Below are positions 18,153 to 50,437 of a stretch of 64,000 nucleotides of DNA, one piece after another. Positions within the stretch are counted from its first letter, which is position 1. Every line of letters begins with the position of its first letter. The notes beneath the pieces were generated by a model that worked only from the letters and a program-made list of their open reading frames with translations, did no database searches and was not told where the DNA came from. Position numbers and translations under genes: made by a program. The stretch is from contig CP019169.1 of assembly GCA_001953215.1 (NCBI GenBank), positions 2,790,001 to 2,854,000 on the forward strand, in the 5' to 3' direction. Source of the stretch: Betaproteobacteria bacterium GR16-43 (GTDB lineage: Bacteria; Pseudomonadota; Gammaproteobacteria; Burkholderiales; Usitatibacteraceae).

Positions 18153-18377
18153 TCCAGACGGGCCATCCGTGTCGCCTTCAAATTGCCTTGTGAGAAACAG
18201 GTGCGCCCTGGCATGAGCGAAGCAATCCTCAAGGTGCCCTCGGTGACGATCAGCAATCGGTAGCAGGTGGTCGCGGGCGGCGTCGACCCACATGGAGTAC
18301 GATCTTTAGCACTTGGTCGACAGTCTTAACGTCTTGACTGTGCGGTTCCTCTGCCTCCAAAGTCGCAGACCTTTGAC
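18153..18377. other. Intergenic stretch before the AT-rich cassette
   Basis: 225 bases without a credible gene. Base composition drops from the local GC-rich norm toward its right end. A small inverted repeat, ACAGTC at 18320-18325 and GACTGT at 18336-18341, lies about 40 bases before the first cassette gene and could be an operator. No convincing -35/-10 pair is seen. Confidence 0.4.
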
Positions 18378-18854
18378 ATGCCAAGTCTTCAGACAGCACT
18401 CGGCAACGACATTCCTAACGCCCAAGAAAAGGGCGTGATGACTCCTCAGGAGATTCAGGGTAGAGCCGAGACCTTTCGGCGCGCCTACCCTCGAAGCAAG
18501 GAACGTCTCGCAGCCCCAACTGGTATCTACAACTGTCACGGCTTGGTCTTCGGTGCTCGGCGAACGCAAATCGCAGATGGCCGTTTTGGTATTCGAAGAG
18601 TGCTGATGGAGGATCGCTACAAGAAGGTTGAGGTGAACGATGTTCGCGCCGGTGATGTCGTAATTTTCATTGCGGGAAATGGATCAGTTGAGCATTCGGC
18701 GGTGGTGATCACACCACCCCGAGAATGCCTCGCAGGGTTTCCATTCGTATTTAGCAAGTGGGGCGAATTCCTCGAATACACCCACTACGCCAACGAATGT
18801 CCCTATGAATCCTCCAATCTTGAGTACTACAGAGTCGATTGGGCTGCCCAATGA
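18378..18854 (+). CDS. Hypothetical protein, possible papain-like (NlpC/P60-type) fold
   Basis: A 158-residue protein without signal peptide. Its core reads APTGIYNCHGLVFGARRT, giving a Cys at about residue 53 followed by His-Gly, then GDVVIFIAG with a later SVEHSAVV containing a His at about 110, and a SKWGEFLEYTH segment. The Cys...His order and the GD-V-FI strand are what one sees in NlpC/P60-like papain folds, and the same motif set occurs in a family of small bacterial proteins of unknown function. The ATG at 18378 has no clear ribosome-binding site; an ATG at 18438 is preceded by AAGGG and may be the true start. The stop overlaps the next ATG. The gene is AT-richer than its neighbours. 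Activity is not demonstrated. Confidence 0.65.
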   Translation: MPSLQTALGNDIPNAQEKGVMTPQEIQGRAETFRRAYPRSKERLAAPTGIYNCHGLVFGARRTQIADGRFGIRRVLMEDRYKKVEVNDVRAGDVVIFIAGNGSVEHSAVVITPPRECLAGFPFVFSKWGEFLEYTHYANECPYESSNLEYYRVDWAAQ

Positions 18855-19306
18855 ATTTTGATCTGCTAAGTCGGGAGTCGTTGGCGAATGTCGTCGCAGT
18901 TGCGAACACCCCAGACTACATATATCGACATCTCTCTGGGGATGCTGGTGTGGGAGCATTGGCTGAGCATTCTTCCACTGACGAACTACTAGGTTTCATA
19001 GCGGAGATTGCCGCTAAGGATGACCGTTCGTTCTCGGAACGCTGCCTCGCGTACGCCGCGGCGGTGGCTGTGACGTTGAAGCCAATTGCGGAAGTTGAGA
19101 ACTGGATCAATGGAAACGGATGCCCGGCATTGCGCTGGATTCCTGAGATCATCGAGCTCCAGCGAAGGCTACGGATCGGTGGAACATTTAGCGCAGAGGA
19201 CTGGGTGAGAAAGCCGCTCGTTGTAGTTTCGGGAGATGGTGCCAGTTCGCTGAGGACGTCAAATACTCCCAGTCCCAGAATTTACAGAGGGGACGCAAAT
19301 GATTAG
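18851..19306 (+). CDS. Hypothetical protein in AT-rich cassette
   Basis: A 151-residue protein that I do not recognise. The start MNFDLLSRESLANVV shares four bases (ATGA) with the preceding stop, and its own stop overlaps the next ATG. The first 115 residues look all-helical, with Ala- and Leu-rich helices such as DELLGFIAEIAAK and CLAYAAAVAVTL resembling HEAT-like repeats; the last 35 residues are polar and probably disordered. No signal peptide or membrane segment. Sample lines read only 31-32 G+C per 60 bases, unlike the core genes. The tight overlaps imply coexpression with both neighbours, perhaps as subunits of one complex or an effector/immunity set. Confidence 0.6.
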   Translation: MNFDLLSRESLANVVAVANTPDYIYRHLSGDAGVGALAEHSSTDELLGFIAEIAAKDDRSFSERCLAYAAAVAVTLKPIAEVENWINGNGCPALRWIPEIIELQRRLRIGGTFSAEDWVRKPLVVVSGDGASSLRTSNTPSPRIYRGDAND

Positions 19307-19733
19307 GACGAAGCTCGCCCTGTGTGCGTCTCGAATGATACGAGACGCTCAGGAAAACAAGATCTCCGCCATTGATATTCTCGAGGACATGGAGATCCAA
19401 GGCTTCCCACTGGTTGTGGCAAGGCTGTCGATCATGTGGGTGTTGACGCGAGACGACGGCGATCCCAATAGACTTCCCGGAACCATCTCAATCACTCTTG
19501 ATGCGGCGACGCTGGCCGAATTCCCTATTGAGATCAATTTTCGTGATCTGCCGAGAACAAGATCATTTCTTGTTTTGGCCGGTATGGCTATTCCTGGGCC
19601 AGGTCTGCTCAGATTCTCGTTTAAACGTGACGAGAGTCCGGCCCCCGATGCTGTATATGACGTGATCGTTCGAGGAGTGCCGGCTGTCGTAGATGCGCCT
19701 GCGGGACCGATTTTGGGAAATCTCGCTGTCTGA
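19299..19733 (+). CDS. Hypothetical protein, DUF6941-like
   Basis: A 144-residue protein rich in predicted beta strands. The order ISAIDILEDMEIQGFPLVV, then a VLTRDDGDPNRLPGTISITLD segment, then IPGPGLLRFSF resembles the DUF6941 family of small bacterial proteins of unknown function, but I make this assignment from memory of the pattern only. No catalytic motif is apparent. The ATG at 19299 lies inside the end of the preceding gene (8-base overlap). It is the third gene of the AT-richer cassette; 57 bases separate it from the DUF2971 gene. Confidence 0.6.
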   Translation: MIRTKLALCASRMIRDAQENKISAIDILEDMEIQGFPLVVARLSIMWVLTRDDGDPNRLPGTISITLDAATLAEFPIEINFRDLPRTRSFLVLAGMAIPGPGLLRFSFKRDESPAPDAVYDVIVRGVPAVVDAPAGPILGNLAV

Positions 19734-19790
19734 TCCGACCGTGACGAACTACGGCACGTGGCTTCATAGACGGAAGGTAGAAGAGCTGGC

Positions 19791-20702
19791 GTGAGTCTGG
19801 CAAAGGAGATCGCCGAGGCCATGCACCAGCGGAGCGCCGCTGTACTTGGCGTTCGACGCCTTTATCGTTTTCTTCCTCTCGCGGGAGCGCTCGAAAAACT
19901 CACTCTGCTCTTCCGAGACGGGAAGATGCGAGCTTCGCACCCTCGATATTTCAACGATCCCTACGATTGTCGTCCGTTTTTCGACCCTGAGTGCCTCGAG
20001 CCTGAGGGTGCTCTCGACGGGTTTCAGCGCCTGATGCAAAAGAGTCTGGTGGGGAACCATGAAGCGCTCGCCGCGCTTGAGGCCGACATTCTCAATCTCC
20101 GCGACAGCAAGCAAGCTAGAGTAGATGCCGTTCAATCTTTGAGCAGGGCAGCGCTGAAGCAGATACGCGAAGTCCACCGCGTGATCTGCCTTTGCGACCA
20201 CCTGTCCCCGCTCCTGTGGGCTCATTACGCGAGCGGGCACTCGGGTGTATGTCTCGAGTTCGACGCGACCCAAGAGCCGTTTAGGAATGCGGTAAGAGTG
20301 GAGTACGAGCAGGACTATCCGACACCCGATTTCGCGAACGGCAACGTCGATCAACTCGCACGCATAGGCCTCCTCACAAAGGCAGCGTGGTGGGAATACG
20401 AGAAGGAGTTCCGACTGATTACTGCTGAGATGGATGGATCCTACGCGAGGTCCACCGATGGGTATTTCCCGGTCACGAAGACGGCCACGATTGCCGTCAT
20501 TCTTGGCCAAGCGTGCCCCGGAGCTGACCCGGAAGCGGGGGAGGCAATTCGCCAACTGCTCGAGCAGCACGCGCCAAGCGTGCATCTACGCATGGCGAGC
20601 AGGAACATACGTAGTTTTTCGCTCGACTACCGGCGGATTCACGTTGACGTTCCCCTAGCTAAGCAGATCAAAGGCTATCCCTCGAAGCCTGCGACTACGT
20701 AG
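19791..20702 (+). CDS. DUF2971 domain-containing protein
   Basis: A 303-residue soluble protein. The DUF2971 pattern is clear: LYRFLP near the start, ASHPRYFNDPYDCRPFFDP (about residues 45-65), and the central ICLCDHLSPLLWAHYASGHSGVCLEFD (about 127-155; conserved W-HYA-GH-G-C) followed by VRVEYEQDYP. The biochemical role of the family is not established. The start is taken as GTG 19791; an ATG 30 bases further on is possible. It ends the AT-richer cassette, 132 bases from the 3' end of the convergent tmRNA gene. Its composition is intermediate between cassette and core genes. Confidence 0.8.
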   Translation: MSLAKEIAEAMHQRSAAVLGVRRLYRFLPLAGALEKLTLLFRDGKMRASHPRYFNDPYDCRPFFDPECLEPEGALDGFQRLMQKSLVGNHEALAALEADILNLRDSKQARVDAVQSLSRAALKQIREVHRVICLCDHLSPLLWAHYASGHSGVCLEFDATQEPFRNAVRVEYEQDYPTPDFANGNVDQLARIGLLTKAAWWEYEKEFRLITAEMDGSYARSTDGYFPVTKTATIAVILGQACPGADPEAGEAIRQLLEQHAPSVHLRMASRNIRSFSLDYRRIHVDVPLAKQIKGYPSKPATT

Positions 20703-20780
20703 CTCGAACGCGGTAGCCTCCGTGCCAGTGTGCTGCATTGCAACCGACGTCTAGGGTCGGTTCGAGAGTTCTTCGCTCTG

Positions 20781-20815
20781 GAAAAAGAAACGGCGTCCAC
20801 TTGGACGCCGTTTGA
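20781..20815 (-). terminator. Rho-independent terminator of ssrA
   Basis: Reading on the minus strand, just past the tmRNA 3' end there is a hairpin with 11-base arms (AAACGGCGTCC and its complement) and a 4-base loop, followed by CTTTTTCC. Position and T-run fit termination of ssrA transcription. Confidence 0.85.
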
Positions 20816-20833
20816 GTTTCCCTTGCGGGGAGT

Positions 20834-21204
20834 TGGTGGAGGCGGCGGGAATCGAACCCGCGTCCGCAAGCCGTTCACAAGCAGTTCTACATGCGTAGCC
20901 AGGCCATTTGTATTAACCCGCACCCCGTAGACCGGCGAACTGGATGAAGGCGAGCCGCCTTGGTTTTAGCAGCTCACGAAGCGGCCCCGTGAACGTGCGA
21001 TCTCATGAATATGACTCTGCGGTAGCGGTGAGCTGCTACTCCGGGTCATGAGAACCCCGGTGCAGAGTCCAGCCGGTATTAGGCGGCTAGAGCGAAGCTA
21101 TCGTCGTTGGCGACTATAGTGTTTTGCGGCTGTATTTACGAGGTAACCACGCCTCGGCATGCCCTGCATTGCTTCAGAACCCACGTCGAAACCAGGTCGC
21201 CCCC
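20834..21204 (-). ncRNA. ssrA: tmRNA
   Basis: Transfer-messenger RNA that rescues stalled ribosomes with SmpB. The 3' end reads GGTTCGATTCCCGCCGCC then TCCACCA; its acceptor strand pairs over seven bases with the 5' GGGGGCG that sets the 5' end at 21204. The alanyl-tRNA-like D-arm region GGTTTCGACGTGGGTT follows the 5' end. The tag frame at 21111-21079 is GCC AAC GAC GAT AGC TTC GCT CTA GCC GCC TAA, that is ANDDSFALAA, close to tags of other betaproteobacteria. One-piece form, about 371 nt. The terminator lies 19 bases downstream. The gene neighbours an AT-rich cassette, in keeping with ssrA 3' ends being frequent integration sites. Confidence 0.95.
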
Positions 21205-21244
21205 GGAAATCCGGGGTTGCTGCGGTACTACGTGTTCGATTCTA

Positions 21245-46616: not shown

Positions 46617-47501
46617 ATGAAGAAGCTGTTTATGTTTTTTGCCGTGCTGCTCGCGTATGCGGGCCTGGCACTGGCGGGTGTGAACATCAATTCCGCGACG
46701 CAGGAGCAACTCGAGTCGCTGAGCGGCATCGGCCCGGTGAAGGCGCAGGCCATCATCGAGTACCGGAAGAAGAACGGCCCGTTCAAGGCGCTCGAAGACA
46801 TCAAGAAGGTCGATGGCATCGGTGACGCCACGTACGACAAGATCAAGGGCGACATCATGCTGAGCGGCCGCACCGAGCCGGTGAAGTCGGACGCGCCGAA
46901 GGCCGCCGCCGAGCCGAAGAAGGCTGCCGCCGAGCCCAAGAAATCCGAGCCCGCACCGGAGCCGAAGAAGGCCGCCGCACCCGAGCCCAAGAAGCCCGAG
47001 CCCACGCCGGAGCCGAAGAAGGCCGCTGCACCCGAGCCCAAGAAGGCCGAGCCCGCCGCCGATCCGAAGAAGGCCGTAGAGCCGAAGAAAGCCGAACCCG
47101 CGGCCGATCCGAAGAAAGCCGCCGCGGAAAAAGCGGCCGCCGACAAGAAGGCGAAGGAAGACGCTGCCGCCGAGAAGAAGAAAGCCGCGGCCGACAAAGC
47201 CGCGGCCGACAAGAAAGCCGCCGCTGACAAAGCCGCGGCCGACAAGAAAGCCAAGGAAGACGCCGCAGCCGAGAAGAAGAAAGCTGCTGCCGACAAAGCC
47301 GCGGCCGACAAGAAGGCCAAGGAAGACGCCGCCGCTGCTGCCGCTGAGAAGAAGAAGGCCGCCGAACTGAAAAAGGCGGAGGAGAAGAAGGCGCGAGACG
47401 ACGCCAAGAAGGCCGCTGAAGCGAAGAAGCCGGCCGATCCGAAAGCGGAACCGAAGAAGCCCGTCGATCCGCCGAAGGAAGACGACAAGAAGAAGCCCTG
47501 A
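46617..47501 (+). CDS. ComEA-like helix-hairpin-helix protein with long Lys/Ala-rich tail
   Basis: A 294-residue exported protein. Signal peptide 1-20 (ends LALA). Residues 21-82 are a ComEA-type helix-hairpin-helix DNA-binding domain with SGIGPVKAQAIIEYR and VDGIGDATYDKIKGDI. Ordinary ComEA proteins of this class stop there, at about 80-100 residues; here about 210 more residues follow, first EPKKAAAEP-type, then AADKKAKEDAAAEKKK-type repeats, strongly basic and helical. The domain binds DNA during uptake in competent bacteria; the tail may bind DNA or the cell wall. A GGGGGG stretch precedes the ATG. A terminator follows within 20 bases. Confidence 0.85.
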   Translation: MKKLFMFFAVLLAYAGLALAGVNINSATQEQLESLSGIGPVKAQAIIEYRKKNGPFKALEDIKKVDGIGDATYDKIKGDIMLSGRTEPVKSDAPKAAAEPKKAAAEPKKSEPAPEPKKAAAPEPKKPEPTPEPKKAAAPEPKKAEPAADPKKAVEPKKAEPAADPKKAAAEKAAADKKAKEDAAAEKKKAAADKAAADKKAAADKAAADKKAKEDAAAEKKKAAADKAAADKKAKEDAAAAAAEKKKAAELKKAEEKKARDDAKKAAEAKKPADPKAEPKKPVDPPKEDDKKKP

Positions 47502-48457: not shown

Positions 48458-49237
48458 ATGGCGGCCCCGATCCTGGTCTTCGACATCGAGACCGTCCCCG
48501 ACGTCGCGGGGCTGCGCAAGCTCTGGGAGCTCGCGGACACGGTGAGCGACGATGCGGTCGTCGACCTCGTGTCGCAACGCCGGCGCCAGGCGACGGGCAG
48601 CGATTTCCTGCCCACGCACCTGCAGCGCATCGTCGCGATCTCGTGCGTGCTTCGCGCGGGCGCGGAGACGCTGCGGGTCTGGTCGGTGGGCACTCCGGAG
48701 GATGGCGAGCGCGAGCTCGTGAAGCGATTCTTCGAGGGCGTCGACAAGTACGTGCCGACGCTGGTGTCGTGGAACGGCTCGTCGTTCGACCTTCCGGTGC
48801 TCCACTATCGCGCGCTGTTCCACGGCGTCCAGGCGAGCGCGTACTGGGATCTCGGCGAGGAGAACAAGGAATTCAAGTGGAACAACTACATCAGCCGCTG
48901 GCACCTGCGCCACACGGACCTGATGGACGTGCTCGCGGGCTACCAGAACCGGGCCTGGGCGCCGTTGAACGAGATCGCGGTGCTGTGCGGGCTGCCGGGC
49001 AAGCTGGGCATGGACGGCTCGCAGGTGTGGCCCGCATACAAGCGCGGCGAACTCGACGCGATCCGCAACTACTGCGAGACGGACGTCGCCAACACCTACC
49101 TGCTCTACCTGCGCTTCCAGCACATGCGCGGCGCGATGGGGCCCGAGGCGTACGAGCGGGAGGTCGCGCTGTTCAAGACCTTCCTCGCCGCGCAGCCTGC
49201 GCCGCACTGGAAGGAGTTTTCCGCAGCGTGGAAATAA
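48458..49237 (+). CDS. 3'-5' exonuclease, DEDDy family (PolB-like)
   Basis: A 259-residue nuclease of the DnaQ/PolB exonuclease superfamily. Exo I is ILVFDIETVPD (residues 5-15), Exo II is LVSWNGSSFDLPVLHYRAL, and Exo III is YCETDVANTYLLYLRF with the Tyr of the DEDDy type. This group is often annotated as a predicted polysaccharide-biosynthesis or PolB-associated exonuclease; the exact DNA/RNA substrate is not known. ATG start four bases after cysM. The TAA stop lies within the left arm of the 35-base inverted repeat. Confidence 0.88.
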   Translation: MAAPILVFDIETVPDVAGLRKLWELADTVSDDAVVDLVSQRRRQATGSDFLPTHLQRIVAISCVLRAGAETLRVWSVGTPEDGERELVKRFFEGVDKYVPTLVSWNGSSFDLPVLHYRALFHGVQASAYWDLGEENKEFKWNNYISRWHLRHTDLMDVLAGYQNRAWAPLNEIAVLCGLPGKLGMDGSQVWPAYKRGELDAIRNYCETDVANTYLLYLRFQHMRGAMGPEAYEREVALFKTFLAAQPAPHWKEFSAAWK

Positions 49238-49324
49238 TTGGGGTCAGACTCCCATTAAGTTAATTCGGATGCGGCACACCGCATCGAAGGAATTAACTTA
49301 ATGGGAGTCTGACCCCAATTATTT
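49232..49324. repeat. Perfect 35-bp inverted repeat (REP-like hairpin) between convergent genes
   Basis: Left arm 49232-49266 and right arm 49290-49324 are exact reverse complements, 35 bases each, containing GGGGTCAGACTCCC. The 23-base loop holds a second perfect stem, GATGCGG and CCGCATC with CACA between. Both flanking CDSs end inside the outer arms: TAA of the exonuclease at 49235-49237 and TAA of the GNAT gene at 49319-49321. The motif resembles REP elements mobilised by REP-associated tyrosine transposases; no transposase is in the window. It can also act as bidirectional transcription stop. Confidence 0.9.
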
Positions 49325-50437
49325 CTTGAACGGCGAGTGGTCGTTCAACTCGTCGACGTACTCCGCGATGTGCGATCCCTCGCGTGCGAGGTAGTCGTCG
49401 ACGGCGCGCTCGAAGGCGGGATGCGCCAGCCAATGGAATGACCGCGTGACCGACGGCAGGAACCCGCGGGCATGCTTGTGCTCGCCCTGCGCGCCGCCTT
49501 CGAAGAGCGGGATGCGCCGCTCGATGCAGAACTCCATCGCCTGGTAGTAGCACGCCTCGAAGTGCAGCCCGGGGACGTAGTCCATCGCACCCCAGTAGCG
49601 GCCGTAGAACGCCGAAGCCGAGAAGAGGTCCAGCGCCGCGGCGATCGGGAATCCGTCGCGCTCCGCGATCACCAGCAGCACGTTGCCGGGCATGCGCTCG
49701 CCCAGCAGGCCGAAGAACGCGCGATTCAGGTACGGCGTCGAGCGATGCGCGCGGTAGGTGCGGCGGTAGCAGGCCGTGAAGAAGTCCCAGTCCGCGCCCG
49801 TCGCTTCGTGTCCCGTCACGCGGCGAAACGTGACGCCGGCCTCGAAGACCTTGCGGCGCTCCTGCCGGATCTTCTTGCGCTTGTCGTGCGAGAGCGCGCC
49901 GAGGAATTCCTCGAAGTTCGCGTATCCGGGGTTGCGCCAATGGAACTGCACGCCGGTGCGCTCGAGCCATCCACCGGCGCGCAGGACTTCCGCGTCTCGA
50001 TCGTCGGGAAACAGCACGTGCGCGGAGGAAAGCTCCGAATCCTTCGCGAGCTTCAGCATTCCCGCGGCGAGGGCCACGCGGGCGTCGCGGGACTCGGCGA
50101 GGAGGCGAAATCCCGTGGCCGGCGTGAAGGGCACCGCGGCGAGCAGCTTCGGGTAGTACGCCAGCCCATGCTTTTCGTGCGCCTCGGCCCACGCCCAGTC
50201 GAAGACGTACTCGCCGTAGGAATGCCCTTTCACGTAGAGCGGAACGCCGCCCGCGAGCCGTTCGCCGTCCCAGAGCGTGAGGTACTGCGGCGCCCAGCCC
50301 GATTCCGCGGAAGCGCAGCCCGTCACGTGCAAGGCGTCGAGGAATGCGTGCGCCAGAGTGGGGTTGTCGCCGGCGAGGGCGTTCCACTGCGGGGCGGGAA
50401 TGGCGTCGAGGGAGGCGAGGAGGCGAAGCTGCGTCAC
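49319..50437 (-). CDS. GNAT/FemAB-fold peptidogalycan-biosynthesis-like N-acetyltransferase
   Basis: A 372-residue protein of the DUF482/peptidogalycan family, whose members have tandem GNAT-type domains. Typical segments: GVPLYVKGHSYGEYVFDWAWAEAHEKHG near residue 70, ESRDARVALAAGM, the SAHVLFPDD region, and the C-terminal GAQGEHKHARGFLPSVTRSFHWLAHP. Function is not established experimentally. Start taken as GTG 50437; GTG 50461 is possible and would overlap the putative nadE promoter. The stop lies in the inverted repeat 49232-49324. Convergent with the exonuclease gene, divergent from nadE. Confidence 0.85.
   Translation of the reverse strand: MTQLRLLASLDAIPAPQWNALAGDNPTLAHAFLDALHVTGCASAESGWAPQYLTLWDGERLAGGVPLYVKGHSYGEYVFDWAWAEAHEKHGLAYYPKLLAAVPFTPATGFRLLAESRDARVALAAGMLKLAKDSELSSAHVLFPDDRDAEVLRAGGWLERTGVQFHWRNPGYANFEEFLGALSHDKRKKIRQERRKVFEAGVTFRRVTGHEATGADWDFFTACYRRTYRAHRSTPYLNRAFFGLLGERMPGNVLLVIAERDGFPIAAALDLFSASAFYGRYWGAMDYVPGLHFEACYYQAMEFCIERRIPLFEGGAQGEHKHARGFLPSVTRSFHWLAHPAFERAVDDYLAREGSHIAEYVDELNDHSPFKK

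Follow-up and report, generated by a model that had tools for sequence, protein, structure and literature searches.

A probable miniature TIRYT element holds the stop codons of two convergent genes

The palindrome and the genes that end in it

Two convergent genes in the window (the whole 64-kb stretch of DNA analysed here) end within a single palindrome, which raises the question of what this element is and how it came to hold the stop codons of both. The gene on the left encodes a predicted 3'-5' exonuclease (PF10108, E 2e-91; 48458–49237, + strand), and facing it is a FemAB-like/GNAT gene (PF04339 and PF13480; 49319–50614, − strand) with an uncertain start, placed at 50437 by a simple gene caller. 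The latter matches PF04339 FemAB_like (E 5.5e-148) and, overlapping it, the GNAT model PF13480 (E 2e-10); the name GNAT used in the preliminary description is loose without being incorrect.

The whole palindromic element spans 95 bases (49231–49325). It had been described as a perfect 35-bp inverted repeat with an inner perfect 7-bp stem, enclosing the stops of both genes, and all three features hold: the arms are exact from 49232 and gain one more outer G-C pair (49231/49325) to reach 36 bp, and both stops end recognisable Pfam-matched genes. The left arm AAATAATTGGGGTCAGACTCCCATTAAGTTAATTC (49232–49266, +) matches the consensus over 43 class-A pairs considered below, and the right arm (49290–49324, −) is its reverse complement. 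The core GGGGTCAGACTCCC lies at 49240–49253 (+) in the left arm, where it includes GGGGTCAG, which fits the TIRYT TIR motif GGGGWSAS, and at 49303–49316 (−) in the right arm. Between the arms is a 23-base centre containing the inner stem and its 4-base loop, GATGCGG-CACA-CCGCATC (49268–49285). The tails AAATAATT/AATTATTT carry the two TAA stops, that of the exonuclease gene at 49235–49237 (+) and that of the FemAB/GNAT-like gene at 49319–49321 (−) in the opposite tail. No other perfect inverted repeat of at least 16 bp, with copies no more than 300 bp apart, exists in the window, and 20 first-order Markov shuffles of the window produced arms of 15 bp at most. Its RNA fold has a predicted energy of −74.4 kcal/mol (z = −15.39; 0 of 200 shuffles equally good), and a promoter scan of the element returned nothing.

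The repeat family and its transposases

The element belongs to an abundant family. The exact 14-mer core occurs 50 times in forward and 48 times in reverse orientation in the window's own genome (G000, 4.81 Mb), mostly as inverted pairs, against 0/0 for a reversed-pattern control, so the multi-copy, REP-like character proposed earlier is borne out. A 13-mer core is found in 6 of 41 genomes searched, the window's own included, with counts on the two strands of 86/80 in that genome, 43/43 in G002, the closest congener among the genomes compared (exonuclease 91% identical), and 2/2 in G004. An exact-pattern scan of named genomes yielded two single matches, in a Comamonadaceae MAG and a Ramlibacter MAG, and three sub-threshold Rfam matches, driven by the long hairpin, were rejected.

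The 63 elements examined take in every one of the 98 exact 14-mer cores plus another 16 cores matching the 13-mer, or 114 out of 166 for the 13-mer, and consist of 51 inverted pairs and 12 single arms. The arm consensus over 43 class-A pairs is AAATAATTGGGGTCAGACTCCCATTAAGTTAATT. From 6 bases ahead of the core to 15 bases into it, these 43 pairs show only 7 departures, of which 2 affect both arms symmetrically. Variation is greater at the outermost bases: perfect arms of at least 26 bp counted from the outermost base are present in 25 of the 43 pairs, and a mismatch among the first five arm bases in 18. Some class-A pairs (L024, L047 and L052) are 243–333 bp long with other DNA between the arms. 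At L038 (2103–3482) class-A cores lie 1380 bp apart around two convergent ORFs (163 and 241 aa) without a transposase, and both outer genes take their stops from the element arms; a cargo-bearing or composite element is possible there.

The genome contains three Y1 (IS200-like) transposase genes, all with PF01797 above the cut-off and each lying within its own inverted-repeat family: class A (AATAATTGGGGTCAGACTCCCATT), class C (CAATAAAGGGGTCAGACTCCTTTATTG) and class E (AATCGGGGTCAGGGTAGAAATAT). The supposed tie between the element and a Y1 tyrosine transposase is thereby confirmed, a 770-bp class-A copy elsewhere in the genome (4635125–4635894) enclosing a Y1 transposase of 230 residues. The exact TIRs measure 24 bp in this copy (AATAATTGGGGTCAGACTCCCATT), 27 bp in class C and 23–25 bp in class E. 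The Y1 translations contain HVHL and RYIExNPVRAG, which we take to be the HUH and Tyr motifs. With the RAYT model NCBIfam NF047646 (E 8.4e-19) the three transposases score 67.9, 73.7 and 71.9 bits against a cut-off of 80. Against the PDB, phmmer found three Y1 transposases, all weak matches (E 0.13–0.33), and one unrelated protein (E 1), and a search of viral contigs with the transposase found no relative. Class E, the third TIR family with its own Y1 transposase (L009, G000:C1:4161657-4164989), has 63 + 67 matches with up to 2 mismatches, 130 genome-wide. It is often clustered in two or three arms and also adjoins class-A half-elements (L020, L042); its sample here is 15 elements, drawn from 30 loci out of the 130 matches.

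These three transposase and TIR pairs are TIRtron-like. In the excerpted text of Di Nocera et al. 2013 (PMC3733652), the TIRs of TIRYT/TIRtron elements have GGGGWSAS in common, and the likeness extends to a Y1 gene within long TIRs and to dispersed TIR dimers and clusters; the present tails differ in carrying TAA or TGA and in being tightly anchored on stop codons. All five Y1 genes of G002 are likewise flanked by further repeats containing GGGTCAG, as are one of three in G004 (GGGGTCAGACTCC) and the sole one in G005 (GTGTCAGGTAC). No GTCAG-type repeat surrounds the other two Y1 genes of G004 or the single Y1 gene of G001, and Y1 genes without such TIRs in the genus count against a TIRYT reading. 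A further counterpart is TnpAREP subclass 2.1, for which the source is said to be Quentin et al. 2018. According to excerpts of PMC6006769 this subclass probably corresponds to TIRYT, and its TIR consensus GGGG[AT][CG]A[CG] is fitted by GGGGTCAG; it differs in C-terminal HTH domains, which have no Pfam match (E ≤ 1) in the three transposases here, where a weak or divergent HTH is possible.

There is good support for identifying the window element as a miniature TIRYT element, and we consider it probable (roughly 0.8), judging from sequence comparison, that it is a miniature, non-autonomous copy whose own TAAs replaced the stops of both genes at this locus. The Y1 transposase would mobilise such short copies in trans, presumably through recognition of the folded single-stranded arms as hairpins. 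Because the arm tails carry TAA, a copy inserted at or beside a stop codon would supply an in-frame stop and leave the protein nearly unchanged.

The exonuclease/FemAB junction and other orthologous sites

The preliminary description held that insertion probably created or replaced both gene ends and suggested aligning homologues to see whether the proteins were cut or extended. At the element-free junction of G004 the two stops are 7 bases apart, and the ends read AAWV-TAG for the exonuclease and PFRK-TGA for the FemAB/GNAT protein; in the window's genome the ends are AAWK-TAA and PFKK-TAA with the element between. Both stops are now element TAAs, but the proteins end at the corresponding codons without an element in G004; the stop codons were therefore replaced in place and neither protein was cut or extended. 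The element seems to have displaced a few bases between the convergent stops, leaving both as its own TAAs.

Lengthening by an element is instead found in G002 (L062), where the FemAB/GNAT-like gene continues about 6 codons beyond its former end, entering a different element, and terminates SKPGSE-TAG, a six-residue tail that is largely element-coded; the G002 exonuclease keeps an AAWK-like end (DAWK), with its TGA just outside this third element. In G005 another element, with the GTGTCAGGTAC kernel, occupies the same junction and gives TAA to both genes (AAWK, PFRK). G001 has AAWK-TGA for the exonuclease, a longer partner protein and 165 bases between the genes, in which no GTCAG-type palindrome was found. 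The G002 palindrome contains the exact 28-bp inverted repeat of one G002 transposase gene, and the G005 element has GTGTCAGGTAC and part of the inner stretch in common with its own transposase repeats but differs outside the core. Three species thus carry three different palindromes at one junction, two matching transposase repeats of their own genome and the third resembling its own, and independent insertions would be the simplest reading of these sequences.

Gene ends were also compared with G002 orthologues at other loci. A G002 match of at least 55% identity, in some cases weak (L017), was available for 21 of the 31 class-A sides with an element-supplied stop; the stops fall on the same codon in 9 of the 21 and within one codon in 15, with 10 proteins shorter, 2 longer and 9 equal, and the largest loss is 9 residues. 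Of 25 class-A sides with native stops, 4 of which have the stop at least 30 bases away, 16 end at the codon of the G002 orthologue and 23 no more than one codon from it; the outliers are +13 and +66, the latter at a G002 orthologue that runs past the end of its retrieved stretch.

Occupancy was compared with a G002 sample of 80 stretches of 20 kb and one 3.8-kb locus, whose background is raised because the first stretches were chosen near G002's own elements. The GGGTCAG kernel is present at 50 of 186 convergent, 55 of 947 tandem and 11 of 196 divergent G002 junctions of up to 400 bp. G002 is occupied at 14 of 30 alignable orthologous sites, against 105 of 1133 convergent and tandem junctions (p 2e-7), an excess that is due in part to convergent junctions being full of elements; restricted to convergent sites, the comparison shows no significant difference (4 of 8 against 50 of 186; p 0.22). 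Another eight sites were excluded as rearranged or poorly alignable, and at least three of them (L011, L013 and L054:2033) carry a GTCAG-type element in G002. A GTCATTCCCGCGAAGGCGGGAATCC-like intergenic repeat recurs at G002 gene ends orthologous to the class-A sites L014:9543, L035 and L012.

Contact with stop codons and relation to known repeats

Among the 63 elements, 86 sides face gene 3' ends, and the stop lies inside the element on 35 of them (31 class A at −5, 2 class C at −4, one at −2 and one at +21). A native stop starts 8–24 bases ahead of the core on 45 of the 86 sides and farther away on 6, while the 26 sides facing gene starts are spread over 4 to 134 bases; start positions and 5' distances are approximate, gene calling having relied on a simple codon-usage script. 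At least one stop is found within 24 bases of 55 of the 63 elements and none at the other 8. The 51 paired elements lie between convergent (27), tandem (21) or divergent (1) genes or are unclassed (2), and the class-A TAA is given to both genes at 3 of the 27 convergent elements (the window, L038 and L060). AAA is the last codon ahead of the class-A TAA in 23 of 31 cases. The A-rich bases before ATAATT belong to the element rather than to coding context, since sides that face gene starts have the outer AA about as often. No target motif beyond AAATAATT was found on class-A sides, where the element boundary is fuzzy; exact boundary and target are blurred because the aligned flanks of the nearest congener are mostly 75–89% identical.

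Other families reach the stop by different means. On class-E sides a preceding T completes TAA in 4 of 23 cases and an internal TAG serves 3. In G002, family ATGAATGGGG gives TGA on 7 of 17 sides and family AATAAAGGGG TAA on 7 of 44, with a tail-overlapping TGA on 10 of 44. Tails without a stop also occur, AAAACCCGGGTCAG being an example, and in the G002 family AAAACCCGGG, which has a stop-free tail, 8 of 9 stops lie outside and one is at an internal TAG. Taking all G002 families together, the element contains the stop on 25 of 100 3' sides, and the stop is near on 66 and far on 9; an additional 9 sides appear to fall within a called gene.

The conservative reading of this concentration is selection against altered C-termini and against insertions elsewhere, and the alternatives are genuine target choice or some advantage of having a hairpin at the stop. 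In its full form the conservative reading holds that elements insert anywhere, that only gene-end or intergenic copies survive and that stop contact reflects compact junctions, and we give it somewhat less than even odds. Convergent and tandem gaps are indeed short (medians 13 and 14 bp), and losses exceed gains at element-supplied stops, as blind insertion with selection predicts. Compactness does not explain the stop contact, however. In roomy tandem gaps, with at least 45 nt from element to next start, 14 of 18 elements (6 of 7 in the window's own genome, 8 of 11 in G002) lie within 5 nt of the upstream stop, where 2.0 were expected; in 20,000 simulations the maximum was 10 and none reached 14, a stop inside the element being scored as distance 0 and the native gap taken as the gap minus the element. 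Other guard lengths gave 21 of 26 against 2.6 expected and 9 of 11 against 1.1, and 7.6% of randomly chosen intergenic positions have a stop within 12 nt (window and G002 sample). Of the class-A in-element stops, moreover, 31 use the TAA frame and 1 the frame with some 9 added residues, yet the six-residue tail in G002 is tolerated. The small losses and a large part of the frame bias would follow from blind insertion with selection on C-termini. Stop contact in roomy gaps is harder to explain in this way, though targeting or a hairpin benefit would account for it.

A more tentative proposal, which we regard as possible though rather unlikely, is that stop codons are the actual landing site, or the sole retention site, of these TIRYT elements in any gene, that in families with different tails the tail has evolved to finish with a stop in frame (TAA, or in ATGAATGGGG TGA), and that one junction comes to be occupied by different families in sister species. 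If so, the elements would be interchangeable, self-stopping 3'-end cassettes that set the stop and 3' UTR of many convergent pairs, possibly on the scale of the 50 in 186 sampled G002 convergent junctions that carry the kernel.

Retention of the hairpin for control of translation termination or protection of mRNA 3' ends appears unlikely. Its stability of about −74 kcal/mol and the tight distance to the stop beside a loose distance to the next start are consistent with such a role. A related case is that of E. coli REPs close to stop codons, which reportedly goes back to Liang 2015. Excerpts of PMC12306157 state that REPs within 15 nt of the stop stall ribosomes, a placement resembling the present one, although the stop there is the gene's own and here it often belongs to the repeat. 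Against a functional hairpin, 16 of 30 orthologous G002 junctions are without the GGGTCAG kernel, and because orthologous junctions often have no such element the hairpin is dispensable at those genes.

That the element is a classical GTAG REP or REPIN mobilised by a RAYT is quite improbable. It resembles these repeats, and the betaproteobacterial REPs to which it was first likened, in being a multi-copy inverted palindromic doublet at gene 3' ends with a RAYT-like Y1 transposase in the genome. The window element, however, is without GTAG or GTGG in both arms and on both strands, its RAYT scores fall under the cut-off, and its TIRs are long and of the TIRYT type (GGGGWSAS), so it is not a classical REP. 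In the excerpted text of PMC3733652, GTAG REPs near gene 3' ends are already known to have their TAG used as stop, a provision given there for GTAG REPs and not for TIR families; here both tails of a single element supply the stop, as TAA. A bidirectional intrinsic terminator common to the two genes, which a hairpin between convergent genes might suggest, is the least probable alternative, since no terminator-like site was scored in a scan restricted to loops of 3–8, the outer tails AAUUAUUU are not a U-run and 21 of 51 similar elements lie between tandem genes.

Elements of this kind are already known, and what is notable is the anchoring on stops, its exactness and the reuse of one spot in related species. 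In open-licence PMC articles we found no publication on stop-anchored TIR elements: neither TIR families with TAA or TGA tails that supply stops, nor codon-level exactness against orthologues, nor a change of family at one junction, nor the core GGGGTCAGACTCC. A repeat can evidently take over the stop codon and 3' UTR of a gene with the protein hardly altered. REP-like repeats lie at gene 3' ends in many bacteria, where selection or target choice can explain them; several transposase-matched families with differing stop-bearing tails, together with element-free junctions in the genus, make these two readings separable by experiment.

Two other features of the window deserve mention. The gene at 46617–47501 has a long, repetitive tail rich in Ala, Lys and Pro (EPKKAAA...) behind an apparent short N-terminal domain. 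At 18153–21244 lie 3.1 kb in which the codon-usage script called no gene and which contain a 303-aa ORF at 19791–20702 (+); this is perhaps DNA of different codon usage.
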